Both the position numbers and the translations under genes were made by a program. A DNA stretch of 64,000 bases from a bacterium (lineage in GTDB: Bacteria > Myxococcota > UBA727 > JAUIJE01), in assembly GCA_030431455.1 (NCBI GenBank), contig JAUIJE010000019.1, positions 62,001 to 126,000 on the forward strand. Direction: 5' to 3'. Below the pieces are notes generated by a model. That model was not told the origin of the DNA. It saw only the letters and a program-made list of their open reading frames with translations, and did not search any database. The stretch's first letter is position 1; every line of letters begins with the position of its first letter. This document shows positions 45,918 to 61,256 of the stretch, piece after piece.

Positions 45918-48062
45918 ATGCTCAAATCATTTGCTTGGATCAGAACCCTATCTTTGATGATGGCTCTCACTGGCTTCGGCATGGTCACGACCACCGGCTG
46001 CCCGACCGACACCGGAGACGGTGACGGCGACGGCGATGGCGATGGCGACGGAGACGGTGACGGGGATGGCGACGGTGACGGCGACGGCGACGGTGACGGT
46101 GACGGGGACGGTGATGGTGACGGGGACGGTGATGGCGACGGGGATGGCGACGGGGATGGCGATGGTGACGGAGACGGCGACGGCGACGGTGACGGCGACG
46201 GAGATGGCGACGGGGACGGCGACGGTGACGGTGACGGAGATGGCGACGGTGACGGAGATGGCGACGGCGACGGCGATGCCTGTTCGGGGGCGATGACCGT
46301 GACGCTGCCGTTTGCGGTGTCCGGCGATGACTTTGATGCGGACTTCCCGGACAACGGGACGATCATGGGCACGGATTGTTCGACGGTGTCGAGCACCCCG
46401 GGGACCAAACCCGAAGCGGTGTTTGCGTTCGACCTGTTGGCTGGCCAAAACGTGGTCGCCTACGAGAACAACACCGGCCTCGACCTCGTGATCCACCTGT
46501 TGGGCGCCTGCATGAGCGACAACGAGACCTGTCTCGGCAGCCTCGACTTCGGCGAGGACCAAGGCGTGTCCCTCACCGCCGACGCCGACGGGACCTACTA
46601 CGCGGTGTTCGAGAGCTGGGGCAACGCCACCGGCACCGCCCGGGCCTACGACATCCACATCGCGAGCCCCGAGTGCGGCAACGGCAACGTCGAGCCCGGC
46701 GAGGCCTGCGACGACGGCAACACCGCCGCGGGCGACGGCTGTGACGACGTGTGCGGCGCGGTCGAAGACGGGTACGCGTGCGACACCACCGTGCAGCCCA
46801 CCGACTGCCGCCAAATCGTGTGCGGCGACGGGTACGTCGACGGGGACGAGGTATGCGACGATGGCAACGCGGTGGACGGAGACGGCTGCAATGAGCTGTG
46901 CGACACCATCGAGGACGGGTACTACTGCGACGTGGAGATGTCCCCCACGCTGTGCACCGCCATCGTGGTGCTCAACAACGGTGACGCCTGTGACCCCGAC
47001 GACCCGATCAACATCTGCGACGTCGACGCGGGGGCCTTCTGTTTGGAGACCGCGCCGGACAGCGGGACGTTCACCTGCGAAAACCCCGCCGCCGAGGCCT
47101 GCGCCAACCAGCTGTTGATCGCCACCACCGGAGACAACGTCGGCGACCTCACCGGGGCCACCGACGACTTCGGCGCCGGTTGCAGCACGAGCACGTTGCC
47201 CCGCACCGGTCGTCCCGACGACGTGTGGGAGTACAGCGTGGTCGGCGACAACGTGAACGTGCGGTTCGAAGAGACCGGTTCGTTGGACGCGGTCTTTGCG
47301 GTCCGCACCACCTGCGAGCTGGCCAGCACCAACCTTCACTGCGCGGACTTCCCCGAGGAGTACAACGCGGTGGGGGCGCGCAACGGCGACGTCTTCTACA
47401 TCATCATGGACCGCTGGAGCGGCACCTCCACGGTGGTGGACTACGTGCTGACCATCACCGAGATTCCGATCCTGAGCGAAGGCGACGCCTGCGTGGTGGG
47501 TGACGAGGACTCCATCTGTGAGGACGGCCTGGTCTGCTACCAAGACGTGTGCACTGCCATTGTGTACCTCAACGAGGGCGACGCCTGCGTGGACGACAAC
47601 CCCGCCGAGCTGTGCACCGCGCCGCTCGAGTGCGTCAACAACGTCTGCACCGACCTCGCGGCCGAGACCTGCAACGCCGCCATCGTGCTCACCGGCACCG
47701 GCGGGACCGAGACCGGCACCGCGACCTACGGTGGCCTCAACGCCGAGGCGTACGAGACCCCGGACAATGAGTGCACCACCTACTCGTCCACCGGCAACGA
47801 GCAGGTGTTCGAGGTGACGGTGCCCGCGGGCCAAACCCTGACCGCGACCATGGGCAACAACGGCGGCGCCATCGACGCGGCCATCTACCTGCTCGACGGT
47901 TGCCCGGGGACCACCTGCCTGATCGGCACCGACGACGGCCAGGACGAGACGTTGACCTGGACCAACAACGACGCGAACCCGGTCACGGTGTTCATCGTGG
48001 CGGACCGCTTCCTCAACGTGGGAGTGGAGTACGACTACGAGATGACGTGGTCGATCCAATAA
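45918..48062 (+). CDS. large lipoprotein with Gly-Asp linker and Cys-rich (DUF4215-like) repeats
   Basis: A 714-residue protein. Signal ends at TTTGC (residue 28). Residues 33-120 are about 43 Gly-Asp units, a strongly acidic flexible stalk. Residues 120-250 form a beta domain ([17 protein letters not shown]...). Around residue 253 come two Myxococcus-type Cys-rich repeats ([54 protein letters not shown]), the DUF4215 signature. More Cys-paired segments lead to a C-terminal domain near residues 575-714. It is probably a cell-surface protein. A terminator follows 24 bp after the stop. Confidence 0.85.
46010..46277 (+). repeat. long Gly-Asp coding repeat
   Basis: About 43 units of GGN-GAY in one uninterrupted block, the longest in the window. 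Codon third positions vary (GGC, GGT, GGG, GGA; GAC, GAT), so the peptide is conserved at the protein level. Such tracts can also change length by slippage. Confidence 0.9.
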
Positions 48063-48490: not shown

Positions 48491-48709
48491 GTGCCGGGCG
48501 CGCGGTTGCCGGTGCCGCAGATCTGTGAGCAGCGGGGCGCCACGCGCAAAAACTGCGGGTTTTTCAAATGTCGCTGGACAATCCGCACACACGCGGCGGG
48601 ACCCGCCGTAACCCAGGTTGAACTCATTTTTTGGATTTGTGACATGAACACCAGCGCGAAAAGCGCCGGCGGGGCGTCGTGTTGTCTCCGCCCGAGAGGT
48701 CAGCCGTGA
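48491..48709 (+). CDS. possible short Cys-containing leader ORF
   Basis: Open frame of 72 codons from a GTG at 48491. Its stop (TGA, 48707-48709) overlaps the GTG of the 7TM-transglutaminase gene as GTGA, a pattern typical of coupled genes. It contains QICEQRGATRKNCGFFKCRW and a later Cys pair (GASCC). The start is weak and the codon use is not clearly that of a gene. It may be a leader peptide, part of the operon or a chance frame. An ATG at 48643 would leave only 21 codons. Confidence 0.3.
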   Translation: MPGARLPVPQICEQRGATRKNCGFFKCRWTIRTHAAGPAVTQVELIFWICDMNTSAKSAGGASCCLRPRGQP

Positions 48710-50271
48710 CCACGGTTCACCGGGTCATGGTGTGGGGCATGGTGGCGCTGGCCACGGTGCTCAGCCTGGTTCGACTCAACGCCATCGGCTTCAACCAGGA
48801 CTACATCCTCCCCAAACGTGTGTGGCAGGTGGACATCCTGCAGACGGTGAGCGACGCGTCGGGGGGCGCGGAGGTCTCGGCGCTGCTCCCGACCACCACC
48901 TCGCGGCAAAACATCCTCGATGCGGCCAACCTGTCGCCGGACTTTGACCATGTGGCCGAGCCCGACGGCCCCAACCTCGTCGGGCGCTGGCGCTTGCAGC
49001 CGCGCAAGGACGGGGGACAGATCAAATACACCGTGCGGGTGCAGCCCGAGGCGGTGCGCTTCGACATCGATCCCGACATTCGGCTGAGCGACGATGTCCC
49101 CGCGGGGCTTCAGGCCTTCGTCGCCGCCACCGACGAGATTCAGGTGGACGCGGCGGACGTGCGGGAGTTGGCCACGTCCCTGCGCCCCGACTCGGGGAGC
49201 GTGCTCCGCTATGCACAGTCCGCCTTCGATCATGTGCAGGGGTTCCAGTTTCGCCCGTTCAAAGGCACCACCAGCGCGCTCACCGCGCTTCGGCTCGGGG
49301 AGGCCAGTTGCAATGGCCGCAGCCGGCTGTTGGTCGCGCTGTTCCGCGCCCAGAACATCCCCGCGCGGCTGGTGGGCGGGGTCATCCTCGAGGAGGGCAG
49401 CAAGCGCACGTCGCACCAGTGGATGGAGGCGTTCATCGCCGGGCGCTGGGTGCCGTTCGACGCGCTCAACCATCACTTTGCCCAGATCCCCGCCCACTAC
49501 CTCGAGCTGTACCGGGGTGACCTCGCGGAGTTCAAACACACGTCGGGCATCACCTACCGTTACGAGTTCAAGATGCGGCCCGAGCTGGTGCCCCCGTCGA
49601 CCATCGCGGAGAAGCGTGACGCGTTGGGGGTGTGGTCGATCTTCGAGCAGCTCGGCTTGTCGCTGGATCTGCTGCGCATCCTGATCATGATGCCGCTGGG
49701 CGCGATGGTCATCGTCATCTTCCGCAACGTGGTGGGGTTGAAGACCTTTGGCACGTTCCTGCCCACGCTGATCGCGGCCGCGAGCACCAACACCGGGTTT
49801 TGGTCGGGGGTGTTCGGCTTTGTGGTCATCGTGTTGCTCACGTCTCTGGTCCGCCGGGCCATCGCCCCGCTGCAGCTGCTCCACTCTCCACAGTTGGCCA
49901 TCCTGTTGACCACCACGGTGTCCTTGATGGTGGTGCTGACGTTTGTGGGTGCTCAGTTTGGGTTGTCCGGTCTCACCCGCATCACGCTGTTCCCCATTGC
50001 TGTTCTCGCCATCACCGCGGAGCGCTTCGTGCTCATGGAGGCGGAGGAGGGCGCGGTGGAGGCGCTGCGCACCTTGGCCTGGACCGTGGTGGTGGTGTTT
50101 TTCTGCTACCTCGCGATCAGCTCGGTGGCGCTTCAGTTGTTGTTGCTGAGTTTCCCCGAGCTGTTGCTGGTGGTGGTGGCGGTGGACATCTGGCTGGGCC
50201 GGTGGCTCGGCCTGCGCGTCACCGAGTGGGCCCGGTTCCGGCCGGTGTTGGCCGCGGCGGAGATCCGATGA
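48706..50271 (+). CDS. transglutaminase domain fused to seven membrane helices (Transglut_i_TM/7TM_transglut type)
   Basis: A 521-residue protein. The GTG at 48706 (AGAGGT upstream) begins a signal-anchor helix (RVMVWGMVALATVLSLVRL). Residues 40-330 are extracytoplasmic, with a transglutaminase-like core. The core has Cys202 in EASCNGRSRLLVALFRAQNIPARLVGG, His237 in SHQWMEAFI and Asp252 in VPFDALN, the right order and spacing for a Cys-His-Asp triad. Residues 335-510 hold about seven membrane helices. Databases usually call this family inactive transglutaminase fused to 7TM. The ATP-grasp gene follows with a 4-bp overlap, the usual partnership of this family. Confidence 0.9.
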   Translation: MTTVHRVMVWGMVALATVLSLVRLNAIGFNQDYILPKRVWQVDILQTVSDASGGAEVSALLPTTTSRQNILDAANLSPDFDHVAEPDGPNLVGRWRLQPRKDGGQIKYTVRVQPEAVRFDIDPDIRLSDDVPAGLQAFVAATDEIQVDAADVRELATSLRPDSGSVLRYAQSAFDHVQGFQFRPFKGTTSALTALRLGEASCNGRSRLLVALFRAQNIPARLVGGVILEEGSKRTSHQWMEAFIAGRWVPFDALNHHFAQIPAHYLELYRGDLAEFKHTSGITYRYEFKMRPELVPPSTIAEKRDALGVWSIFEQLGLSLDLLRILIMMPLGAMVIVIFRNVVGLKTFGTFLPTLIAAASTNTGFWSGVFGFVVIVLLTSLVRRAIAPLQLLHSPQLAILLTTTVSLMVVLTFVGAQFGLSGLTRITLFPIAVLAITAERFVLMEAEEGAVEALRTLAWTVVVVFFCYLAISSVALQLLLLSFPELLLVVVAVDIWLGRWLGLRVTEWARFRPVLAAAEIR

Positions 50272-51176
50272 CCGCACGAAGCTGGTGGGACGCGGTGTGC
50301 GGGGTGTCGCGCGACGTGCTCGGGCTCAACCGGCGCAACCTCGAGTACGTGTATCCGCTCAACCCGCGCTGGGCCTACGTGCTCGCGGACGACAAGCGGC
50401 GGGCAAAGGCCGAGCTCACCGCCCACGGCCTCCCCACCGCCCCCACATTGGCGTGTTTTGATCGCTTCGAACAGCTCGCCCGTCTCGACGACACCCTTCG
50501 CGCTCACGACGAATTCGTGGTCAAGCCCGCGCACGGGCGCGCGGGGCGGGGCGTGCTGGTGATCGTGTCCCGGGCGGGCGACGGCTTTGTCACCGCGGGG
50601 GGGCGGCGGCTGAGCTTGGACCACTTGCGCCGGCACATCGCGGACATCGTGTTCGGGGTGTTCAGCCTCGATCGGGCCGACGCGGCGTTGGTCGAACCTC
50701 GTTTGGTGCCGAGCGGGTTCTTTGCCGCGTTGGCCCCGGCCGGCCTGGCCGACATCCGGATCATCACCGTCGACGGCGTGCCCAAGGCGGCGATGATCCG
50801 CGCCCCCACGGTGGCGTCCGACGGCCGGGCGAACATCCACCAGGGCGCGGTGGGCATCGCGGTGGACCTCGCCACCGGTGCGCTGCGCGGGGGCTGGCAC
50901 CGCCGGTCGCGGGTGGCCGAGCACCCGGACACCGGACACCCGCTCAGTGGCATTGGCATCCCCGGGTGGGCCGGCATCGTCGACATCGCGCGGCGTGTGA
51001 GCGCGGTCTTGCCCCTGCGGTACCTCGGGCTCGACATCATCGTGGACGCGGCGCGCGGCCCTCTGATCCTCGAGTTCAACGCGCGCCCGGGACTGGAAAT
51101 CCAAAACGTACTCGGCGTCCCCCTCGGGCGGGCGTTGGGCCCGGTGGGGCCGGGCCGGGCGGGGGCGCGGGCATGA
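50268..51176 (+). CDS. ATP-grasp alpha-L-glutamate ligase-like protein
   Basis: A 302-residue ATP-grasp enzyme. Residues 20-80 form the N-terminal fold (LGLNRRNLEYVYPLNPRWAYVLADDKRRAKAELTAHGLPTAPT). Then come FVVKPAHGRAGRGVLVI (ATP-binding Lys and Gly-rich loop), EPRLVPSGF and LGLDIIVDAARGPLILEFNARPGLEIQN, with the metal-binding Glu and Asn of the family. RimK-like relatives join amino acids through an amide bond using ATP. The substrate is unknown. The ATG overlaps the preceding stop (ATGA), as does the next gene's ATG. Cytosolic. Confidence 0.9.
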   Translation: MTARSWWDAVCGVSRDVLGLNRRNLEYVYPLNPRWAYVLADDKRRAKAELTAHGLPTAPTLACFDRFEQLARLDDTLRAHDEFVVKPAHGRAGRGVLVIVSRAGDGFVTAGGRRLSLDHLRRHIADIVFGVFSLDRADAALVEPRLVPSGFFAALAPAGLADIRIITVDGVPKAAMIRAPTVASDGRANIHQGAVGIAVDLATGALRGGWHRRSRVAEHPDTGHPLSGIGIPGWAGIVDIARRVSAVLPLRYLGLDIIVDAARGPLILEFNARPGLEIQNVLGVPLGRALGPVGPGRAGARA

Positions 51177-53251
51177 ACATGCAAGGGTCGTTTGTCCCCG
51201 TGCTCTTGGTGCTGGCGATGTTCATCGTGTCCGCGCGCTGGCTCGACGACGCGGCCGAACGCGCGGCCGAGCGCGAGACCGTGATCAAGCTCTCGAGCGT
51301 GGCCCGGACCTGGCGCTTCGACGAACAAGACGCGCTCATCGAGCTGCCCACCGAGGAACTCGACGACCAGGCCGCGCCCCACCCCGCGGTGCAGGAAGCA
51401 CAAACATTGCGCGCGGCCGGTCACATCGGGGCCGCGGTGGACCGCCTCGAGGCCGCGCTCCAGCAGGACGAGGGCTTGGTTCCGGTGCGCATCGCCTTGT
51501 GCCGCCTTCACCTCGCCCGGGACCAGGCGGCGCGCGGGCTGGAGGCGCTGAACCACCCGTCGGTGGCCGACGACGTCAGCGCGATGTTCCTGCAGGGGTT
51601 GGCGCTCACCCGCCTGGGCAAGGTGGACGAGGCCGCCCAGCGGTACCGCGCGGTGGTGCGGACCACGCCCAGCCACTTCGAGGCCAACTACAACCTGGGG
51701 CTCCTCCTGCTCGAGGGCCGGCGCCCCACCGAGGCGATCCCCGTGCTCCAGACCGCCAGCGAAGCGGCCGGGGGCCGCCGCAAGGCCCGGGCCCTGTTCG
51801 CCCTCGGCAGCGCCTACCGGCGCAACCGCCTGCACACCCAAGCCGAGGACGCCTACCTGCGCGCCATCGAGTTCGCCCCCGACTACCTTTTGCCCCGGGT
51901 GAACCTCGCGCTGCTGTACGGCACCGACAAGCGCGAACAGGCCGAGGCGGTCCTCGACGAGGCGCTCCGGCTGCGCCCCGATTTCGCCCCCGCGTATTTT
52001 CTCAAGGCCCGGCTCGCCTCGCGGGCGAACGAGCCCGAGCGCGCCCTGCGTCTTTACGAGCGGGCGGCCAAGCTCGACCCGGGGTTTTACAAGGCCCGGT
52101 ACAACATCGGCATCCTCCGGCTCGAGGCCGGGCGGATGGCCGCGGCCCAGTCCGCGTTTGAAGCACTGACATTGTCGTTTCCCGACCGGCCCGAGCCGTG
52201 GTTCAACCTCGGGCGCATCGCCTACCGCCGCGACGATCTCGAGCTCGCCCGGGCCCACTACGAACAAGCCCTGACCGCCAGCGCCGGGGATTACCCCGAG
52301 GCCACCCTCAACCTCGCTCTTGTCGACCGTCGCCAGAAGAAGCTCAAGAAGGCGCTGGCCCGGCTCAACCGCTTGCTGCAGCAACATGGGGACTACGCCG
52401 CGGCCTACGTCAACCGCGGCACCGTGCACCAGCGCCGGGGGGACCTCGACAAGGCCATCGAGGACTTTCACACCGCGCTCACCCTGCAGCCGAAATCGGT
52501 GAGCGCGACCTACAACCTCGCCCGGGCCCACGCCGCCGCCGGTCACCAAGACCTCGCGGTCGAGACCTACCGCGCGGTGCTCGCGCTCCGGCCGTCGCAC
52601 GAACGCGCCGCGGTCAACCTCGGCATCACCCTGGTGGACGCCGGCGACCTCGACGGGGCCGAAGCCGTGTTTCGCCAGGCCCTCGACGCGCACCCCCACG
52701 CGGTGAAGGCCAACTTTCACCTCGGCCGGCTCGAGCTCAAAACCGGCCGAACCGCCGCCGCCCTCGAGCACCTCCAGGCGGTGTTGGCGGTGGACCCCGA
52801 CCACATCACCGCCCGGCGGCTGATGGGCCTCGGCTATGCACGGTTGGACCGCTACCCCGAAGCGATCGAGGCCTACGAAGCCACCCTGGAGCGCAAGCCG
52901 AGCTTGCGGTCGGTGCGCTACAACCTGGCCCTGGCGCACAAACGGCAAGGCGCGGTGGACAAAGCCGATCGCGAGCTCACCCGGTGCCTGCGGCTCGACG
53001 CCGACTACGCCCCGTGTCTGCTCTCCAAAGCCCTGCTCGCGGTGGAGGCGGGGGCGCCCGACCGCGCCCTCGCCGTGCTCGAGGGCCGGGTCGACGACCA
53101 CTCCGCCGCGGGCTTGCAGGCGGTGTATGCCCGCGCCCTCGCGGACCAAGGCCACGCCGACCGGGCCCGCGTCTGGCTTCGCCTCGCAGAGGCCCAAGAC
53201 CCCGATGACGAGGACGTACGTGCCGCCCTCGCCTCGCTCAACCCTGAATGA
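51173..53251 (+). CDS. membrane-anchored TPR protein
   Basis: A 692-residue protein: one N-terminal helix (GSFVPVLLVLAMFIVSARWL), then about 16 TPR units to the end (for example FEANYNLGLLLLEGRRPTEAIPVLQTASEA, FKARYNIGILRLEAGRMAAAQSAFEALTLSFPDRPEPWFNLGRIAYRRDDLELARAHYEQAL, VSATYNLARAHAAAGHQDLAVETYRAVLALRPSHERA). It should be anchored in the inner membrane with the TPR array in the periplasm, a likely scaffold for the neighbouring enzymes. It overlaps the ATP-grasp gene by 4 bp, and the next gene starts 13 bp after its stop. Confidence 0.9.
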   Translation: MNMQGSFVPVLLVLAMFIVSARWLDDAAERAAERETVIKLSSVARTWRFDEQDALIELPTEELDDQAAPHPAVQEAQTLRAAGHIGAAVDRLEAALQQDEGLVPVRIALCRLHLARDQAARGLEALNHPSVADDVSAMFLQGLALTRLGKVDEAAQRYRAVVRTTPSHFEANYNLGLLLLEGRRPTEAIPVLQTASEAAGGRRKARALFALGSAYRRNRLHTQAEDAYLRAIEFAPDYLLPRVNLALLYGTDKREQAEAVLDEALRLRPDFAPAYFLKARLASRANEPERALRLYERAAKLDPGFYKARYNIGILRLEAGRMAAAQSAFEALTLSFPDRPEPWFNLGRIAYRRDDLELARAHYEQALTASAGDYPEATLNLALVDRRQKKLKKALARLNRLLQQHGDYAAAYVNRGTVHQRRGDLDKAIEDFHTALTLQPKSVSATYNLARAHAAAGHQDLAVETYRAVLALRPSHERAAVNLGITLVDAGDLDGAEAVFRQALDAHPHAVKANFHLGRLELKTGRTAAALEHLQAVLAVDPDHITARRLMGLGYARLDRYPEAIEAYEATLERKPSLRSVRYNLALAHKRQGAVDKADRELTRCLRLDADYAPCLLSKALLAVEAGAPDRALAVLEGRVDDHSAAGLQAVYARALADQGHADRARVWLRLAEAQDPDDEDVRAALASLNPE

Positions 53252-53264
53252 TTCGGAGGACCCG

Positions 53265-54710
53265 ATGAAGCAATGGCATTTGCGTTTGATGTTGATGTGG
53301 CTCGCTCTTTCGCTCGCCGGCTGCCCTGGCCTGGCCGTGGACCCCGGGACCGATGCCGGCACCCCCATCGGTGACGGAGACGGCGACGGCGACGGTGACG
53401 GTGACGGTGACGGGGACGGTGACGGGGACGGTGACGGGGACGGTGACGGTGACGGTGACGGTGACGGGGACGGGGACATCGATCCCAACAGCGCCGACGA
53501 GATGGCGTTTCAGGCCGCGCTCGCGCTCTTCGACGCGGGCGACTATGTCGAGGCCCAAGCCGCGTTCGAACAACACGCGGCCGATTACCCTGCGAGCCCG
53601 CGCCACGACAATGTCAGCTACCTGGTCGGGCGCTGTCAGTACGAGCGAGAGCTGTATGTGGAGGCCCGCACCACCTTCGGGGCGTTCCTGGCCACGTTCG
53701 CGGACTCGGTCCTGCGCGATGACGCGAGCTACTACCGCGCGATGTGCAGCTACCAGACCGCCGACTACAGCACCGCGTCGACCGAGCTGGACAGCGTGGT
53801 GACCGATTTCCCGTCGAGCGCACGCATCGACGACTGCCGCTACTTCGGGGGACGGGCCTACTTCGAACTGAACCAGTTCGAGACCGCCCGGGCGCGGTTC
53901 GACGACGTCGTGGCCGACGCCACCAGCTCGTTCCGCGACGGCTCGGTGTACTACGCCGGCCGATCGGACTACGCCCGGGCCAAGCTCGACCCGGTGGTGC
54001 CGTCGCCCTTCGTGGCCCAGGCCGAGGGCATGTTCGAGCTGTTGTTCAACGACTACCCCGACGGGGTCTACGAGGACCAGGGCCGCTACTACTACGGCCT
54101 GGCCGCGTTGCAGGGCGACGCCTTCGCCACCGCCGCGACCCGCTTCGACTACATCGTGAGCAACTTCCCCGCCAGCATCTACTACGACAACGCCAACTAC
54201 TTCGGCGGCTATGCCCGATATCGCGATGGCCAGTACGACGCCGCGATCAATGACCTCGATGACTTCATCACCAACCCATCGTTCACCACCAGCATCTTCC
54301 TCGACAACGCCACCTACTACGCGGGCCGGTCCTATCAACGGCGCGACAATGGGATCCAAGATCTCAACACCGCGCTGACCCGCTTCGACACCGTGATCAC
54401 CACCTTCGCCGGGTCCAACTACGTCGACAACGCCACCTACTACCGGGGCCGGGTCTACTACGCCCGCGCGCCCCAGGGGGCCAACGCCACCGCCGACTAC
54501 GCCGCCGCGGTGACCGATTTCGAAACCGTGGAGAGCACCTACGCCACCAGCACGTTCGTGGACAACGCCTACCTTTACGAGGTGCGCACCCACGTCGACA
54601 ACAACGACTGCGCCGAGGCGTCGACCACCCTGGGGGCGTTCTCTGCCGCTCAACCCCAAAGCCCGCTGTTGACCACCGCCCAGGACTACGCCTCCGCCAA
54701 TGGTTGCTGA
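53265..54710 (+). CDS. lipoprotein with Gly-Asp linker and YbgF/BamD-like TPR repeats
   Basis: A 481-residue lipoprotein. GGAGGACCC precedes the ATG. The signal ends at LSLAGC, followed by residues 36-73, a Gly-Asp linker. The rest is TPR/YbgF-like: DEMAFQAALALFDAGDYVEAQAAFEQHAADYPASPRHDNVSYLVGRCQYERELYVEARTTFGAFLATFADSVLRDDASYYRAMCSYQ and further repeats of the type SIYYDNANYFGGYARYRDGQYDAAINDLDDF. The repeats carry many Tyr and Asp. This looks like a periplasmic or outer-membrane scaffold. Its gene overlaps the next by 11 bp. Confidence 0.85.
   Translation: MKQWHLRLMLMWLALSLAGCPGLAVDPGTDAGTPIGDGDGDGDGDGDGDGDGDGDGDGDGDGDGDGDGDGDIDPNSADEMAFQAALALFDAGDYVEAQAAFEQHAADYPASPRHDNVSYLVGRCQYERELYVEARTTFGAFLATFADSVLRDDASYYRAMCSYQTADYSTASTELDSVVTDFPSSARIDDCRYFGGRAYFELNQFETARARFDDVVADATSSFRDGSVYYAGRSDYARAKLDPVVPSPFVAQAEGMFELLFNDYPDGVYEDQGRYYYGLAALQGDAFATAATRFDYIVSNFPASIYYDNANYFGGYARYRDGQYDAAINDLDDFITNPSFTTSIFLDNATYYAGRSYQRRDNGIQDLNTALTRFDTVITTFAGSNYVDNATYYRGRVYYARAPQGANATADYAAAVTDFETVESTYATSTFVDNAYLYEVRTHVDNNDCAEASTTLGAFSAAQPQSPLLTTAQDYASANGC
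53371..53484 (+). repeat. Gly-Asp coding repeat in the operon lipoprotein
   Basis: About 19 Gly-Asp units directly after the lipid Cys region of the lipoprotein gene at 53265. It has the same design as the linkers at 15669, 26655 and 46010. The codons vary, the peptide does not. Confidence 0.85.
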
Positions 54711-56220
54711 ACCCCCGCGTCACCCCCTCCGGTGGGGCTGTCTCCTCGTCGGGCTCGTGGCCGCCTGTGCCCCCGGGCCGGACCCCGACGAGGAGGCCTT
54801 GTCCCAGCTCTTGGCCGCGGCCGCGGAGGGCCGCTGCCAGCAGGTGTTCGACATCACCGCCGAGGGGTTCGTGGCGTCGACCACCCTGCGCGCGGACGCG
54901 GCCCAGGTGGCCGTCGGGCGGTGCGAGTACCGGGCGGATGAGTTCGCGGACGCCGCGGTTCGCCTCGAGACCCCCGCGGACCGCGACCCCGCCAATGTCT
55001 ATACCCCGCGCGCGCTCTACTACCGGTCGCGCGCGCTGCAGCGGGGGGGCCGGCCGGTGGAGGCCGAGCTTTCCTTTCGGCACCTCGCGCGACGGTTCAG
55101 CCACACCAGCTACCACGACGACGGCCTGTACCATCACGGCCGGGTGCTGTTGAGCATGGACCTTCCCGAGGAGGCGGCGGATCGGTTCGTGACGTTGGGG
55201 GGCCTGCCCGCGCTCAAGCCGTCGATGGAGGCCAAGGCGCAGTACGGGCAGGGGCGCGCCCACGAGCTCGCGGGTGCGCTGACCGCCGTCGACCAACGCT
55301 ACGACAGCGCGTTGTCCTTCTACCAGCGGGTGCTCGCCGAGCACGGCGCCGAGGCGGTCGCGGACAACGCGCTGTACCGCATCGGAAAAGTGCACCAGGC
55401 CCGCGCCGACTTCGGCGGGGCCATCGCCGCGTTCGACGCGTTGATCGCCGACTATCCACAGTCCGGCCTGGTCGCGGCCGCGGCCTACCAGCGCGCCCGG
55501 TCGTTGTTGTCCACCGGAGATTTCCGGGGCGCGGACCAGGCCTTTGATGCGTTTTTGGCCGCCTACCCGGACAGCGTGTTCGCGGACAATGCCATGTACC
55601 GAAAAGGGCGCAGCCTCTACGAAGCCGCGGCGGGGGCGGGGGACGAGCCCGCGTTGCTCGGGGCCGCCGACCTCGCGTTCTCCTCGTTGTTCGCCACCTA
55701 TCCGGACAGCCTGTTCGGCTTGTCGGCCAGCTACTTCAGCGGTCGGGCCCGCTACCGGCTCGGCAACGACACCGGCGCGGCCCAGCGATTTCAAGACACA
55801 TTGGCCCGGGGGCCGTCCGGCTACGACGACAACGCCCGCTACTACTTGGCCATGACCAGCTACCACCTCGCCAGCGACGAACCTTCGTACCTCGGCGCGG
55901 TGGCCCAGTTCGACGTCGTGCGCGCGTTGCACCCGGACAGCGGCTACTTGGACAATGCCATGTACTTCCGGGCCCGTTCGCTTCAGCGGGCGGGTCACCT
56001 CGAGGAGGCCCGTGACGCGTTCTTGGCGTTTGTGGGTGAGTTTCCGGACAGCAGCTACGCCGACAACGCCCTGTACCGCCGGGTGTTGGTGTTGCTCGCC
56101 CTCGGTGATTGTGCCGAAGCCGCGTCCACCGGGCAGTGGTTGCACTTTGCCCACCCTGCGTCCCCCTATGGACTCGACGCCCAGACCGCCATCGACGCGG
56201 CCTGTGGCGGGGGCCTGTGA
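54700..56220 (+). CDS. second TPR lipoprotein of the operon
   Basis: A 506-residue protein. The ATG at 54700 overlaps the previous gene by 11 bp and begins MVAEPPRHPLRWGCLLVGLVAAC with a lipobox (VAAC). The mature protein is TPR/YbgF-like: VYTPRALYYRSRALQRGGRPVEAELSFRHLARRFSHTSYHDDGLYHHGRVLLSMDLPEEAADRFVTLGG, GGAIAAFDALIADYPQSGLVAAAAYQRARSLLSTGDFRGADQAFDAFLAAYPDSVFADNAMYRKGRSLYEAA. It is a sister of the protein at 53265 without the Gly-Asp linker. A periplasmic scaffold role for the enzymes upstream is inferred from the operon. Confidence 0.85.
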   Translation: MVAEPPRHPLRWGCLLVGLVAACAPGPDPDEEALSQLLAAAAEGRCQQVFDITAEGFVASTTLRADAAQVAVGRCEYRADEFADAAVRLETPADRDPANVYTPRALYYRSRALQRGGRPVEAELSFRHLARRFSHTSYHDDGLYHHGRVLLSMDLPEEAADRFVTLGGLPALKPSMEAKAQYGQGRAHELAGALTAVDQRYDSALSFYQRVLAEHGAEAVADNALYRIGKVHQARADFGGAIAAFDALIADYPQSGLVAAAAYQRARSLLSTGDFRGADQAFDAFLAAYPDSVFADNAMYRKGRSLYEAAAGAGDEPALLGAADLAFSSLFATYPDSLFGLSASYFSGRARYRLGNDTGAAQRFQDTLARGPSGYDDNARYYLAMTSYHLASDEPSYLGAVAQFDVVRALHPDSGYLDNAMYFRARSLQRAGHLEEARDAFLAFVGEFPDSSYADNALYRRVLVLLALGDCAEAASTGQWLHFAHPASPYGLDAQTAIDAACGGGL

Positions 56221-57659
56221 TGTCGTGGCGCGGCTGGCTGTTCGCCTTGTGGGCGGGCCTGTGGGCGTCGACGGCGGCGGCCGCGTCCCCGGGCGGCGAG
56301 ACGGTGGCGGCCCCGGGCGAGACCGTCGCGCCCGCGTCCGCCGAAGAAAGGGCCAAGCCCCCCAAGCCGAACAAGAAGGCGCGCAAAAAGAAGAAAAAAA
56401 AGAAGCGCAAGAAGAAGAAGCGCAAGAAGAAAAAGACCAAGCCGTGGCTGGTCCAGCCCGACCTCACCCGGCGGTGGGGGTGGCTGGCGGTGACCCCCGA
56501 GATGGGCGCCTTCGTCGAGGGCGGCATGGTTTACGGGCTGGGCATGCGCAACCCGTCGGGGGCACAGCTGGGCCTCGGGGTCGACGGCGGCTTTTTGTTG
56601 TCCGCCCCCTATGCGTGGTTCGAGCCCACCGTTCGCTATGCCCAAGTGCACACCTTCGGCTATCCACAGCCCCAACGTGACCTCGCGCTCGAGGCCGAAG
56701 CGGGCCTGGGCCCGTTCTGGGGCGCCAAGGGGTACAGCAAGGTCGGCTACCGCCGCATGTACCGGCCGGGCTGGAACGACCTCTACCAGCCCCTGGTCGA
56801 CGACAAGGGCGACCCCACCGGCGCGTTCACGCCCACCGATCGGTACAGCACCACCAGCGTCGCGGCCGAGGCCGGGCTCGATGTCGCCCACCCCCTGGGC
56901 GAGTCCGGCCTTTTCGTCGACGCGGCCCGGCGGCTGAACGACCATGACCCGGGGTTCGACCCCATCTTGGCCCCCAATCACTTGGTGCCCAACGACCGCA
57001 CCGAGGTGGGCGGGGGCGTGAAGACCAAGGGCGACCTGTGGGCCCGCCGCCTGCGGTACCGCGTTGCGGGCCACGTCGAATACCGCGCGTACGACCTTCG
57101 CCTCGCCCGCGACCACCACACCGGCAAGACCAACGCCTCCCCCGGCGGCCTCCCCCAAAACCCCCCGCTCAAAGAGTGGCGGGCCCAGCTTCGCAGCCGC
57201 CAGAGCTTTTGGGTCAAGTCGGCCAAGCTCCGGCTGAGCACGTCGGTGAGCTACACCTACAATCTCGATCTCTACGACGGCTACATGAGCTGGCACCGCG
57301 TGGTCGGCAAGATCGGTGCCCGCTGGCGCCCGCTGCGGGGCTTGGCCCTGTCCGCGTCCTGGCGGTCGGCGTTCCGGCTCTTTGAGGACACCGGCTACAA
57401 AGAGGGCGGGGCCCACCCCGCGCTTGACGACGAGTTTGTGTTCGGGCGGCGGCACGACGAGGCGCACACCCTCGAGGCCGAGGCCGCGTACGCGATCTTC
57501 AAGGGCCTGGTCGAGTTCTACGCGGGGACCGAGATGTCCGCCCGGTTCACCAACTTCCCCGACTACACCCCCTACACGTTCCCGGCCCGGCGGGCGTATT
57601 CGCTCGACCGCGACGTCCGCTTGTTCACCGCGTATCTCGGCCTGCGGGTGCAGATGTAG
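56220..57659 (+). CDS. outer-membrane protein with poly-lysine segment
   Basis: A 479-residue protein. The ATG shares a base with the previous stop (TGATG). Signal MSWRGWLFALWAGLWASTAAAA. Residues 45-74 are almost only Lys and Arg (KKARKKKKKKKRKKKKRKK). The rest is beta-strand rich and aromatic (LGVDGGFLLSAPYAWFEPTVRYAQVHTFGYP, LRYRVAGHVEYRAYDLRLARDH, FWVKSAKLRLSTSVSYTYNLDLYDGYMSWHRVVGKIGARW) and ends DVRLFTAYLGLRVQM, in the manner of an outer-membrane barrel. The Lys tract would lie in the periplasm. It could be the amine donor for the transglutaminase-like protein of the operon, or bind acidic polymers. Confidence 0.75.
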   Translation: MSWRGWLFALWAGLWASTAAAASPGGETVAAPGETVAPASAEERAKPPKPNKKARKKKKKKKRKKKKRKKKKTKPWLVQPDLTRRWGWLAVTPEMGAFVEGGMVYGLGMRNPSGAQLGLGVDGGFLLSAPYAWFEPTVRYAQVHTFGYPQPQRDLALEAEAGLGPFWGAKGYSKVGYRRMYRPGWNDLYQPLVDDKGDPTGAFTPTDRYSTTSVAAEAGLDVAHPLGESGLFVDAARRLNDHDPGFDPILAPNHLVPNDRTEVGGGVKTKGDLWARRLRYRVAGHVEYRAYDLRLARDHHTGKTNASPGGLPQNPPLKEWRAQLRSRQSFWVKSAKLRLSTSVSYTYNLDLYDGYMSWHRVVGKIGARWRPLRGLALSASWRSAFRLFEDTGYKEGGAHPALDDEFVFGRRHDEAHTLEAEAAYAIFKGLVEFYAGTEMSARFTNFPDYTPYTFPARRAYSLDRDVRLFTAYLGLRVQM

Positions 57660-57796: not shown

Positions 57797-57873
57797 CGGC
57801 GGCGCGAGTGTGAGACGGGGGTGGACCTTTCACGCTGCCCCGCAACAGTTTTTCGCCAATGGAGGAGAGCCGA

Positions 57874-58830
57874 ATGACCGCTCCCATGATCGCCATTGAG
57901 AATCTCAAGAAGAACTACGGTGAGACCCAAGCGCTCGCCGGGATCAGCTTCCATGTGCCCAAGGGGCAGGTGGTGGGCTTTCTCGGGCCCAACGGCGCGG
58001 GCAAGTCCACGACGATGAAGATCCTCACCGGGTACATCGAGCCCTCCGCGGGGTCGGTGCAGGTGGGGGGCATCAACGTCGAGCACGACCCCGTGGCCGC
58101 GCGCAAGCGCATTGGGTACCTGCCGGAGTCAAACCCGCTCTACGACGAGATGATGGTCCAGGAGTACCTCGAGTACTGCGCGGACATGCGCGAGATTCCG
58201 CGCAGCGAGCGCCAGTCGCGCATCCAGGGCGCGGTGGACCGTTGCGGGCTGGGGCCGGTGCGGCACAAAGACATTGCCGAGCTGTCCAAGGGTTTTCGCC
58301 AGCGGGTGGGTCTGGCCCAGGCGATTCTGCACGATCCCGACCTGCTCATCCTCGACGAGCCCACCACCGGTCTCGACCCCAACCAGGTCATTGAGATCCG
58401 CAACCTGATCAAGGAGCTCGGCCAGGAAAAGACCGTGCTCATGAGCACCCACATTCTGCCCGAGGTGCAAGCGACCTGTTCGCGGGTGCTCATCGTCAGC
58501 AACGGCCAAGTGGTCGCCGACGACGCGCCGGAAAAGCTCGTCGAGAGCGGCGGCCAGATCCAGGTCGAGCTGTGCCCGCGCACCGACACCGCGATCTCCG
58601 GCCAGGACGTGCGGGAGATGCTCACCGGCCTCCCCGGGGTGTCGGACGTGGTCGCGGCCGAGCCCCAAGAGGACGGGGGCCAAGCCTATTTGTTGCGCAT
58701 CGGCGAGACCGACCCCCGCCGGGCGTTGTTTGACGCCGCGGTCGACGCGGGCCTCATCATCATGCGGTTGGAGCAACAGCGCGTGTCCCTCGAGGACACC
58801 TTCCGCCGTCTCACCACCAAAGAAGGCTGA
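57874..58830 (+). CDS. ABC transporter ATP-binding protein (GldA-like)
   Basis: A 318-residue ATPase. Walker A is GFLGPNGAGKSTTMKILTG (near residue 40), the Q loop is in YLPESNPLY, the signature is ELSKGFRQRVGLAQAIL, Walker B is LLILDEPTTGLDP, and the H loop is in MSTHILPEV. The C-terminal 90 residues resemble the DUF4162-like tail of GldA/YhaQ-type ATPases (VSLEDTFRRLTTKEG). The ATG at 57874 with GGAGGAG upstream was chosen. It powers the permease encoded next, 8 bp downstream. Confidence 0.93.
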   Translation: MTAPMIAIENLKKNYGETQALAGISFHVPKGQVVGFLGPNGAGKSTTMKILTGYIEPSAGSVQVGGINVEHDPVAARKRIGYLPESNPLYDEMMVQEYLEYCADMREIPRSERQSRIQGAVDRCGLGPVRHKDIAELSKGFRQRVGLAQAILHDPDLLILDEPTTGLDPNQVIEIRNLIKELGQEKTVLMSTHILPEVQATCSRVLIVSNGQVVADDAPEKLVESGGQIQVELCPRTDTAISGQDVREMLTGLPGVSDVVAAEPQEDGGQAYLLRIGETDPRRALFDAAVDAGLIIMRLEQQRVSLEDTFRRLTTKEG

Positions 58831-58838
58831 GGGACACC

Positions 58839-61256
58839 ATGAACAACGTTTTGTCCATCGCTCGCCGAGAGTTCGCCACCTACTTCAATTCGGCCATGGC
58901 CTACACCGTGCTCGGCTTCTACCTCACGGTGGCGGGCGCGATCTTCTTCTTCACCCTGCTCGGGCCGGGTCTGTTCGTGGCCGGCAACGCGTCGATGCGG
59001 GCGTTCTTCGAGTTTTCGCCCTGGCTGCTCATGATTGTGGTGCCGGCGGTGACCATGCGCCTCATCGCCGAGGAGCGCAAAAGCGGCACCCTCGAGGTGT
59101 TGATGACGCTGCCGGTGCGAGAGCTCGACATCGTGCTCGGCAAATACATCGGCGCGATGGCGATGATGGGCGTCGGTCTGCTCTTCACCCTGCCCATCCC
59201 GGTGGTGTTGTCTGGCCTGGTCGCCGAGGGCTTCTCGTTCGACTGGGGCACGACCTTCACCGGCTACGTGGGCATGTTCTTCTTGGTGTCCGCGTTCGTG
59301 GCCGTGGGCATGTGGATCTCGTCGATGGCCAAGAACCAAATCTCGGCCTTCATCATCGCGTTCATGGTCTGCGCGGTGCTCAACCTGCTCCGGTTCGTGA
59401 CCGTGTTTTTGCCCGAGAGCATCGGCCCCATCTTCCAGAACCTCTCCACCTTTACCCACTTCGAGAACGTCTCCCGCGGCGTGCTCGACAGCCGCGACGT
59501 CATCTACTACGTGGCCATCACCTTCATGGGCTTGGCGTTCTCGGTGTGGGGCCTGCGCTCGGAGGTCCGGTTGGGATTGCGCCGCAGCCTCATCGGCCGG
59601 TTGTCCATCACCGGCGAGCGCGCCGCCGGCGAAGGCATGAGCGCGCGTCGGCGGGCGTCGTTGGCCATCACCACCCTGTCCCTGCTTGGCTCCCTGGTGT
59701 GCCTCAATCTCCTCTCGGTCAACCACTTCGTCCGCGTCGATTTCACCGCCGACAATGTGTACACATTGTCGGACGCGTCCCGCACCACCATGACCGACCT
59801 CGAAGACCCGGTGACGGTGACCGCCTACTTCTCCGGTGACCTCCCCACCCAGTTCGAGCCCATCCGGCGCTACGTCAAGGACCTCCTCGAGGAGTACCGG
59901 GCCGCGTCCAAGGGCAACCTCTCCTTCGAGTTCATCGATCCCACCACCCAAGAGACGGACGAGGACAAAGAGCTCAAAAAAGAGGTCAAGCAAGACATCT
60001 TCGGTCGCCGCGTCCGCGAGCGCACCTCGGTGGAGACCGAGCTCCAAGGCCTCGGCATCCAGCCGGTGGAGATGCGCGTCATCGAAGATGACAACGCCAC
60101 CACCAAGCGGGGCTACATGGGCATTGTCGTCCGGTACCAAGAGGAGACCGAGGTCATCCCCGTGGTCCAGGACATCGGCAGCATCGAGTACGACCTCACC
60201 ACCATGATCCGGCGGCTCACCCGGACCCGGGTGCCGGTGCTCGGGTTGCTCCAGGGCAAAGGCGAGCCCACCCTCGATGAAGGCCTGGCCCGGCTCAAGC
60301 CCCTGCTCGAGCAGAACTACGAGCTCAAGGCCATCGACCTGTCCAAGACCGGCGAGTCCGACATCAAGCTCGATGACCAAATCGACGCCCTGCTCGTCAT
60401 CGGCAACAGCAGCGCCTACAGCGAGAGCGAGAAAAAGCGCATCGATGAGTGGCTGATGACCGGTCGCTCGGCCGCGTTCATGGTCAACCTCGTCGATGTG
60501 GACCTCAAGACCTTCCAGCCGGTCGAGGTCGATCATGGTTGGGACGATCTGCTCAGCGCCTACGGCATCGAGATCGGGGACAAGCTGGTGGCGGACGTGG
60601 AGTGCGCGAGCCTGTCGATTCAGGAAAAGCGCGGGTTCATGATCGTGCAGATGCCGAAGAAGTATCCGTTCATTCCCCAGCTCAAGCTCCTCGAGGGCGA
60701 GTCCCCGGTGACCCGGGGCATCACCGACATGCCGTTGCCGTTCGTGTCGCCGCTGTTTTTGAAGACCGACCTGCCCAACGTCACGGTGCAGTCGCTGGCC
60801 AAGTCGAGCGAGAAGAGCTGGCTCGAGGACGCCGACCCCGCGAAGATGGACCCGCGGCGCGATTGGAGCCAAGAGGACATCGCCATCACCGGCCCGTATG
60901 ACCTCATGGCCGCGGCCGAGGGCAAGCTGCCCTCGCGCTACACCGAAGGCCAGACCGCGGAGAAAGACGCGCGGGTGATGGTGCTCGGCACCGGAGGCAT
61001 CACCCAAGAAGAGTTCTTGGGGCCGCAGAGCGCCACGTTGTTGCTCAACATGGTGGACTGGATGCTGCTCGACCGCGCCCTGCTCGAGATGCGGTCCCGG
61101 GGCATGAGCGTGGCCCCCATCGACCCCGAGCTCACCGACAGCACCCGGGTGGCGGTGAAGTGGGCATTGACATTGGGGGTGCCGTTCTTGCTCGCCCTGT
61201 ACGGTTTTGTTCGTCGCGCGATGCGCTCGGCCCGTCGCAAAGCTTTGGCCGCCTGA
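58839..61256 (+). CDS. ABC-2 permease fused to GldG-like domain
   Basis: An 805-residue fusion. Residues 1-245 are a six-helix ABC-2 permease (IARREFATYFNSAMAYTVLGFYLTVAGAIFFFTLL, MRLIAEERKSGTLEVLMTLPVRELDIVLGKY), like GldF. Residues 270-800 are GldG-like: a helix, FTADNVYTLSDASRTTMTDLEDPVTVTAYFSGDLP, a ThuA-like alpha/beta core (VPVLGLLQGKGEPTLDEGL, DALLVIGNSSAYSESEKKRIDEWLMTGR), and a C-terminal helix (WALTLGVPFLLALYGFVRRAMRSARR). In Bacteroidetes gldF and gldG are separate genes needed for gliding. Here they are joined. A 24-bp palindrome lies at 59750. The substrate is unknown. Confidence 0.92.
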   Translation: MNNVLSIARREFATYFNSAMAYTVLGFYLTVAGAIFFFTLLGPGLFVAGNASMRAFFEFSPWLLMIVVPAVTMRLIAEERKSGTLEVLMTLPVRELDIVLGKYIGAMAMMGVGLLFTLPIPVVLSGLVAEGFSFDWGTTFTGYVGMFFLVSAFVAVGMWISSMAKNQISAFIIAFMVCAVLNLLRFVTVFLPESIGPIFQNLSTFTHFENVSRGVLDSRDVIYYVAITFMGLAFSVWGLRSEVRLGLRRSLIGRLSITGERAAGEGMSARRRASLAITTLSLLGSLVCLNLLSVNHFVRVDFTADNVYTLSDASRTTMTDLEDPVTVTAYFSGDLPTQFEPIRRYVKDLLEEYRAASKGNLSFEFIDPTTQETDEDKELKKEVKQDIFGRRVRERTSVETELQGLGIQPVEMRVIEDDNATTKRGYMGIVVRYQEETEVIPVVQDIGSIEYDLTTMIRRLTRTRVPVLGLLQGKGEPTLDEGLARLKPLLEQNYELKAIDLSKTGESDIKLDDQIDALLVIGNSSAYSESEKKRIDEWLMTGRSAAFMVNLVDVDLKTFQPVEVDHGWDDLLSAYGIEIGDKLVADVECASLSIQEKRGFMIVQMPKKYPFIPQLKLLEGESPVTRGITDMPLPFVSPLFLKTDLPNVTVQSLAKSSEKSWLEDADPAKMDPRRDWSQEDIAITGPYDLMAAAEGKLPSRYTEGQTAEKDARVMVLGTGGITQEEFLGPQSATLLLNMVDWMLLDRALLEMRSRGMSVAPIDPELTDSTRVAVKWALTLGVPFLLALYGFVRRAMRSARRKALAA
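59750..59773. repeat. 24-bp perfect palindrome inside the GldF-GldG gene
   Basis: The core ACAATGTGTACACATTGT is extended by CCG on the left and CGG on the right, 12 + 12 bp without spacer. It encodes ADNVYTLS of the GldG part. It contains CAATG and CATTG halves, like the dispersed motif, but six bases apart. Base composition here is unusually AT-rich for this gene. Confidence 0.9.

Follow-up and report, generated by a model that had tools for sequence, protein, structure and literature searches.

Conserved transglutaminase, ATP-grasp, tetratricopeptide repeat and beta-barrel genes in a myxococcotal operon, a possible trans-envelope sister of the Rlo system

The 64,000-nucleotide stretch of myxococcotal DNA analysed here (hereafter the window) carries a tightly packed operon of six genes, g1 to g6, at 48706-57659 on the + strand. 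Four of these form a core conserved across several bacterial groups, encoding in order a transglutaminase protein with a seven-transmembrane domain (transglutaminase-7TM), an ATP-grasp protein, a tetratricopeptide repeat (TPR) protein and a barrel. We read the operon, with a probability of roughly 0.45, as a single trans-envelope system that is a sister of the Rlo system of Pseudomonas. Our best reading is that a catalytic transglutaminase would replace the Rlo retropepsin and that a TPR/barrel route to the outer membrane would be added; substrate, direction and catalysis are what we infer. The reading frames, taken from the translated window, are as follows.

48706..50271, + strand: g1, an N-terminal membrane helix, a periplasmic beta-domain and transglutaminase domain, then a 7TM_transglut domain
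50268..51176, + strand: g2, a putative ATP-grasp amide ligase, RimK/RloC-like
51173..53251, + strand: g3, a TPR protein with one N-terminal membrane segment
53265..54710, + strand: g4, a TPR lipoprotein with YbgF/BamD-like repeats and a (GD)n linker
54700..56220, + strand: g5, a second TPR lipoprotein of the g4 type
56220..57659, + strand: g6, a predicted beta-barrel of the outer membrane (about 16 strands), preceded by a signal peptide and a periplasmic tail rich in Lys and Arg

An earlier note on this DNA had described six genes joined by five close junctions, and translation of the window reproduced all of them exactly: ATGA at both g1/g2 and g2/g3, a 13-bp gap at g3/g4, an 11-bp overlap at g4/g5 and TGATG at g5/g6. 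The predicted set covers the cytosol, inner membrane, periplasm and outer membrane, in agreement with its claim of parts for the cytosol, both membranes and the periplasm. Pfam searches assigned Transglut_core and 7TM_transglut to g1, ATP-grasp to g2 and TPR families to g3-g5, and detected no glycosyltransferase-type synthase among the six.

To place the operon among its relatives, g2 relatives from 80 loci were compared with all six window proteins by tblastn (L and G numbers denote loci and genomes). The order g1, g2, g3, TPR lipoprotein(s), barrel was found in the Myxococcota loci L006, L009, L011, L013, L015, L016, L017, L020, L023, L033, L037 and L045. Of these, L006, L016 and L023 have two TPR lipoproteins each; L021 and L049 run from g1 to the barrel without any. 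Overlaps of start and stop codons recur as well (L016 9977/9974 and 10888/10885; L010 10864/10861 and 12753/12750; L035 10834/10831 and 13101/13098). Because the genes before g1 and after the barrel vary from locus to locus, the conserved block ends where that of the window ends. Outside the Myxococcota, in Gammaproteobacteria, Nitrosomonadales, Bacteroidota and Calditrichota, g1, g2 and g3 are followed by a protein some 370-420 residues long whose start resembles a signal peptide, and this fourth core protein is related to g6 (E 6e-12 by profile search, hhalign probability 99%). The expectation of a conserved six-gene order thus held in part: the last four genes are indeed conserved beside the first two, an outcome in favour of the earlier note, which had named the opposite as its refutation, but the core is four genes, and the number of TPR lipoproteins varies from none to two among the Myxococcota loci. 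Relatives of g4 sit between g3 and the barrel in most of those loci, and TPR lipoproteins lie upstream in some loci of other groups. Several loci of the active type defined below have two-component genes as neighbours, with LytTR- or OmpR-type regulators and sensor kinases: L035 (4022-8363), L018 (471-1220) and L055 (3349-8101).

Aligned relatives of g1 fall into two groups, one retaining the catalytic Cys and His (active-type) and one having lost either residue (degenerate), and this division is matched by the neighbouring genes. Among 42 active-type loci for which at least about 4 kb of downstream sequence was available, and 18 other loci, the TPR gene was present in 42/42 and 0/18, respectively (p 1e-15), and the barrel in 36/42 and 1/18, counts that are not fully independent since the g3 and barrel profiles were built partly from the same loci. 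The single barrel outside the active type, in L043, belongs to a locus without the active-site Cys and without a TPR gene. Retropepsin relatives adjoin the degenerate-type loci L039, L052 and L062 and none of the active-type loci. The locus types therefore separate cleanly, an active-looking transglutaminase occurring with TPR and barrel genes and a degenerate one with a retropepsin or with neither. We also observed a third type of locus (L056, L057, L064, L066-L078; Sphingomonadales, Actinomycetota, Chloroflexota and Patescibacteria), in which a 7TM_transglut gene without a recognisable transglutaminase domain lies beside an ATP-grasp ligase gene and there is no TPR or barrel gene.

Two genome censuses, together with plain tblastn searches of the window proteins, agree with these counts. 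Across 195 Myxococcota genomes (active-type g1 profile >700 bits, g6 profile >370 bits), active-type g1 occurred in 16 and the barrel in 13, all of them among those 16, so that 13/16 genomes with full-length g1 carried a barrel vs 0/179 without it (Fisher p 9e-18). Eleven of the 13 pairs lie on one contig within about 7 kb, and those of G010 and G075 are on separate contigs. As for the three genomes with g1 and no barrel, G193 has the TPR gene, the contig of G086 ends just past the TPR gene, and G076 is 66% complete. In 369 gammaproteobacterial genomes the barrel was found in 8/9 with active-type g1 vs 1/360 without (p 1e-14), and none of the eight pairs spans more than about 4.5 kb.

The g1 protein itself has an active-looking site. 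It matched PF01841 (E 2.4e-14) and PF14402 (E 8e-46) in Pfam, with no match there to the inactive transglutaminase type PF14400, and alignment with its relatives shows the triad Cys202, His237 and Asp252 to be retained. Both Cys and His are present in about 55 active-type relatives, within the motifs GEASCNGKS and KRTSHQWVE, while the third position is Asp, Cys or Gly. Over residues 37-296 the structure model of g1 (pLDDT 89.6) matches best to 3ISR, a putative cysteine protease (252 residues, Z 24.2), and next to transglutaminases and TgpA (Z 9.9). The triad thus lies in a papain-like transglutaminase fold, although the modelled fold that g1 shares with 3ISR and transglutaminases does not establish a function. 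Further along the chain, the 7TM part of the model (residues 345-469; 49738-50112), which has broken helices, aligns with NqrD, a part of the sodium-pumping NADH:quinone oxidoreductase (Z 8.8, 123 residues, 3.1 A). We do not claim kinship, as this Z lies within the range of common helical arrangements.

In Pseudomonas aeruginosa, Rlo comprises the retropepsin RloA, the inactive transglutaminase-7TM protein RloB and the ATP-grasp protein RloC; the loss of the retropepsins is rescued when rloB or rloC is lost too, and RloA cleaves polyglutamate in vitro (PMC12239564). Although g1 aligns with the NCBIfam RloB model NF052267 over residues 195-515 (E 1e-35), it scores only 123 bits against a cut-off of 900. 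Similarly, g2 matched TIGR02291 (alpha-L-glutamate ligase-like) with E 3e-73 and 246.7 bits, below the cut-off of 314.2 bits. Membership in Rlo was accordingly rejected on four defining features, namely the dead transglutaminase, the retropepsin in the operon, the RloB score and the TIGR02291 score. The genome has an Rlo-type pair of its own elsewhere (contig C16:449869-452267), whose transglutaminase-7TM protein matches PF14400 and has Glu, Arg and Ser at the catalytic positions, and whose ligase reaches 357 bits against TIGR02291, above the cut-off. The presence of this known inactive pair argues that g1/g2 is not that pair, and it joins the missing PF14400 match, the sub-cut-off RloB and TIGR02291 scores and the retained triad in contradicting the earlier identification of g1 and g2 as the known Transglut_i_TM pair. 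No retropepsin lies beside the C16 pair, the only PF05618 match of the genome being on contig C7. Within C16:448650-452370 (L094 5654-9367), the pair is adjoined instead by a divergent gene of the AstE/AspA deacylase family, which may take the place of the protease.

The ligase assignment of g2 is drawn from family matches and conserved residues. It matched PF14397 (ATPgrasp_ST) at E 1e-57 and RimK weakly, and has the ATP-binding lysine K86 and the Mg-binding E269-x-N271 of ATP-grasp enzymes; K86, R164, D256, E269 and N271 are conserved family-wide. In a FastTree phylogeny of g2, a clade with support 0.995 unites the 55 active-type loci, L065 (whose g1 is cut off by the contig end) and L043, separate from the rlo type. 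Fusion of g1 and g2 into one reading frame, found in 21 loci, indicates that the ligase is physically tied to the membrane protein and works at the membrane, and it puts the C-terminal end of the 7TM domain on the cytosolic side.

The product of g6 had no family match in Pfam or NCBIfam, and a sequence search of the PDB with its profile gave chance-level matches only. Its AlphaFold model (pLDDT 74, with >80 for most residues in strands) forms a barrel with about 16 strands, for which Foldseek returned 414 PDB matches at E<=0.001, including porins and AlgE, and VIA-align gave Z 18-22 to porins and CdiB. With a signal peptide and a closed modelled barrel, g6 is predicted to be an outer-membrane beta-barrel. 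The gammaproteobacterial and betaproteobacterial relatives weakly match EpsL, the barrel of exopolysaccharide (exosortase) loci. After its signal-peptide-like start, g6 has a Lys/Arg-rich stretch (23/30 residues, at about residues 45-75; 56352-56445), so the earlier description of a poly-Lys barrel holds for g6 itself, both barrel and tail. The tail is, though, lineage-specific (roughly half of the barrels from Myxococcota have it, those from other phyla never), and poly-Lys was therefore ruled out as a core feature. A smaller barrel may be present in L022, where the gene after the TPR gene encodes a protein of 224 residues with a beta-rich-looking sequence.

Between these membrane components lie the TPR proteins. 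With TPR families and a single hydrophobic segment (residues 6-24), g3 is probably a periplasmic scaffold anchored in the inner membrane. Both g4 (YfiO, E 2e-22) and g5 (TPR_6, E 1e-18) matched Pfam repeat families and scored above the NCBIfam tol_pal_ybgF cut-off, and they have the lipobox-like motifs LAGC and VAAC, respectively.

Two sets of flanking genes were considered as members of the set and rejected, as both are absent from the matching place in relatives: an upstream DUF4215 lipoprotein-like gene (45918-48062) and the downstream ATP-binding cassette (ABC) transporter genes (57859-61256), which encode an ABC ATPase and an ABC-2 permease fused to an ABC_transp_aux (GldG-like) domain. 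Scans for promoters and terminators gave one promoter-like site only, outside the operon and at chance level. Long (GD)n stretches occur in g4 (53370-53480) and in the upstream lipoprotein-like gene (46004-46300); since their antisense reads as (SP)n open frames, programs that call open reading frames may be misled.

The trans-envelope reading can be laid out in four steps. First, g2 would form amide bonds with ATP in the cytosol, yielding a short peptide or amino-acid product that, if RimK and Rlo are a guide, may be rich in glutamate. Second, this product would pass to or through the 7TM domain of g1. Third, the periplasmic Cys-His transglutaminase domain of g1 would cut the product or transfer it by transamidation to an acceptor, in place of the secreted retropepsin of Rlo. 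Finally, g3 and the TPR lipoproteins would bridge the periplasm, and the g6 barrel would export or display the product at the outer membrane, in a manner similar to that of the TPR and barrel proteins of alginate secretion. The rlo genetics, together with cleavage of polyglutamate by RloA, suggest that a ligase-membrane pair makes something needing periplasmic processing, and in this operon an active transglutaminase could do that processing. The earlier model of polymer synthesis and anchoring would, as a hypothesis, fit this scheme. Taken further, the operon would be an unrecognised envelope machine, present in several groups of bacteria, in which a non-ribosomal peptide or an amino-acid polymer made by an ATP-grasp ligase is processed or transferred by the transglutaminase and delivered to the surface through the TPR proteins and the barrel, a peptide counterpart of exopolysaccharide secretion; we advance this stronger version as a tentative and, on balance, rather unlikely one. 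The open-access papers searched contained no description of the gene set, the only related ones being the Rlo paper and the vesicle screen cited below, in line with the claim that the complete set is new, although the amidoligase paper of Iyer (2009), which likely covers related neighbourhoods, lay outside that search.

Several points weigh against the trans-envelope reading. The product, the acceptor and the direction of transport are deduced, polyglutamate is suggested as the product by analogy, and TPR matches say little about function. In addition, 20/55 active-type relatives have Cys or Gly as the third residue of the triad, so catalysis by g1 is not certain. No barrel was detected in the active-type Kangiella loci L025, L028, L031 and L041, in L022 (Spirochaetia), in L040 or in genome G193, which indicates either that some loci can do without a barrel or that theirs has diverged. 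Conversely, the gammaproteobacterial genome G364 has a barrel relative without active-type g1.

In one alternative, the operon would modify envelope proteins and export no polymer, and the transglutaminase would attach the ligase product either to a lipoprotein or to the barrel, at its Lys-rich tail, so tying the outer membrane to other layers. Transglutaminases take lysine amines as acceptors, g6 and several relatives have a Lys-rich segment predicted to be periplasmic, and the TPR lipoproteins are of the YbgF/CpoB type. Yet a tail missing so widely, from about half of the Myxococcota barrels and all those of other phyla, cannot be a general acceptor, and we regard this explanation as unlikely. 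Less probable still is an Rlo stress system with a swapped protease, whose product would stay in the periplasm and tune turgor or the cell wall, with structural or sensory roles for the TPR and barrel proteins. The osmotic, cell-shape, biofilm and antibiotic phenotypes of rlo mutants and the control of rlo by VxrB in Vibrio cholerae (PMC12239564) speak for it, as do the effect of a related inactive transglutaminase-7TM gene on vesicle release in Shewanella vesiculosa (PMC12096838) and the two-component regulators beside some loci; it leaves unexplained, however, why the TPR and barrel genes track the active-type transglutaminase nearly always and the rlo type hardly ever. An inward flow, in which the barrel imports peptides, a cysteine peptidase of transglutaminase fold cuts them, and the membrane domain and ligase salvage or recycle the pieces, seems quite improbable: the barrel models resemble both porins for uptake and barrels for export, and the solved structure nearest to the g1 domain, 3ISR, bears the name of a putative cysteine protease, but a ligase that spends ATP to form amides suits synthesis better than uptake, and the set encodes no binding protein or known transporter. 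Lastly, dense gene packing is common among bacterial genomes and could bring six unrelated neighbours together, but order and coupling are kept across several groups despite changing flanks, which with the two censuses (p 9e-18 and 1e-14) rejects chance adjacency and leaves this explanation next to nothing.

If a ligase-made peptide is exported as the trans-envelope reading would have it, the operon would represent a new secretion route. As Rlo influences biofilms, cell shape and the way in which a major pathogen copes with osmotic change and antibiotics, a sister operon would offer a second handle on its product, and this sister shares the membrane and ligase core and occurs in cultured environmental bacteria such as Anaeromyxobacter, one species of which has the set from g1 to the barrel.

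Four known systems come closest to the operon. RimK/RimB (a ribosomal protein S6 glutamate ligase and a retropepsin) resembles g2 in ATP-grasp fold and conserved ligase residues, but is without membrane, periplasmic or outer-membrane parts. TgpA, an essential inner-membrane protein of Pseudomonas aeruginosa, shares with g1 a membrane-anchored periplasmic transglutaminase domain; we know of no 7TM_transglut domain in it and of no ligase, TPR or barrel partners. Synthase-dependent exopolysaccharide secretion (AlgK/AlgE, PgaA, BcsC; EpsL) likewise sets a periplasmic TPR scaffold and an outer-membrane barrel beside inner-membrane and cytosolic biosynthesis, and the matches of the g6 model to AlgE and of its relatives to EpsL add to the likeness, whereas the operon has a putative amide-forming ligase and a transglutaminase-7TM protein in place of a glycosyltransferase-type synthase. 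With Rlo, finally, the operon shares a 7TM_transglut domain that follows a periplasmic transglutaminase-fold domain and lies beside a RimK-like ATP-grasp ligase. It differs in keeping the catalytic Cys and His, in a ligase of a separate clade, in scores below the NCBIfam cut-offs for both RloB and TIGR02291, and in having, rather than an adjoining retropepsin, a TPR scaffold and an outer-membrane barrel.

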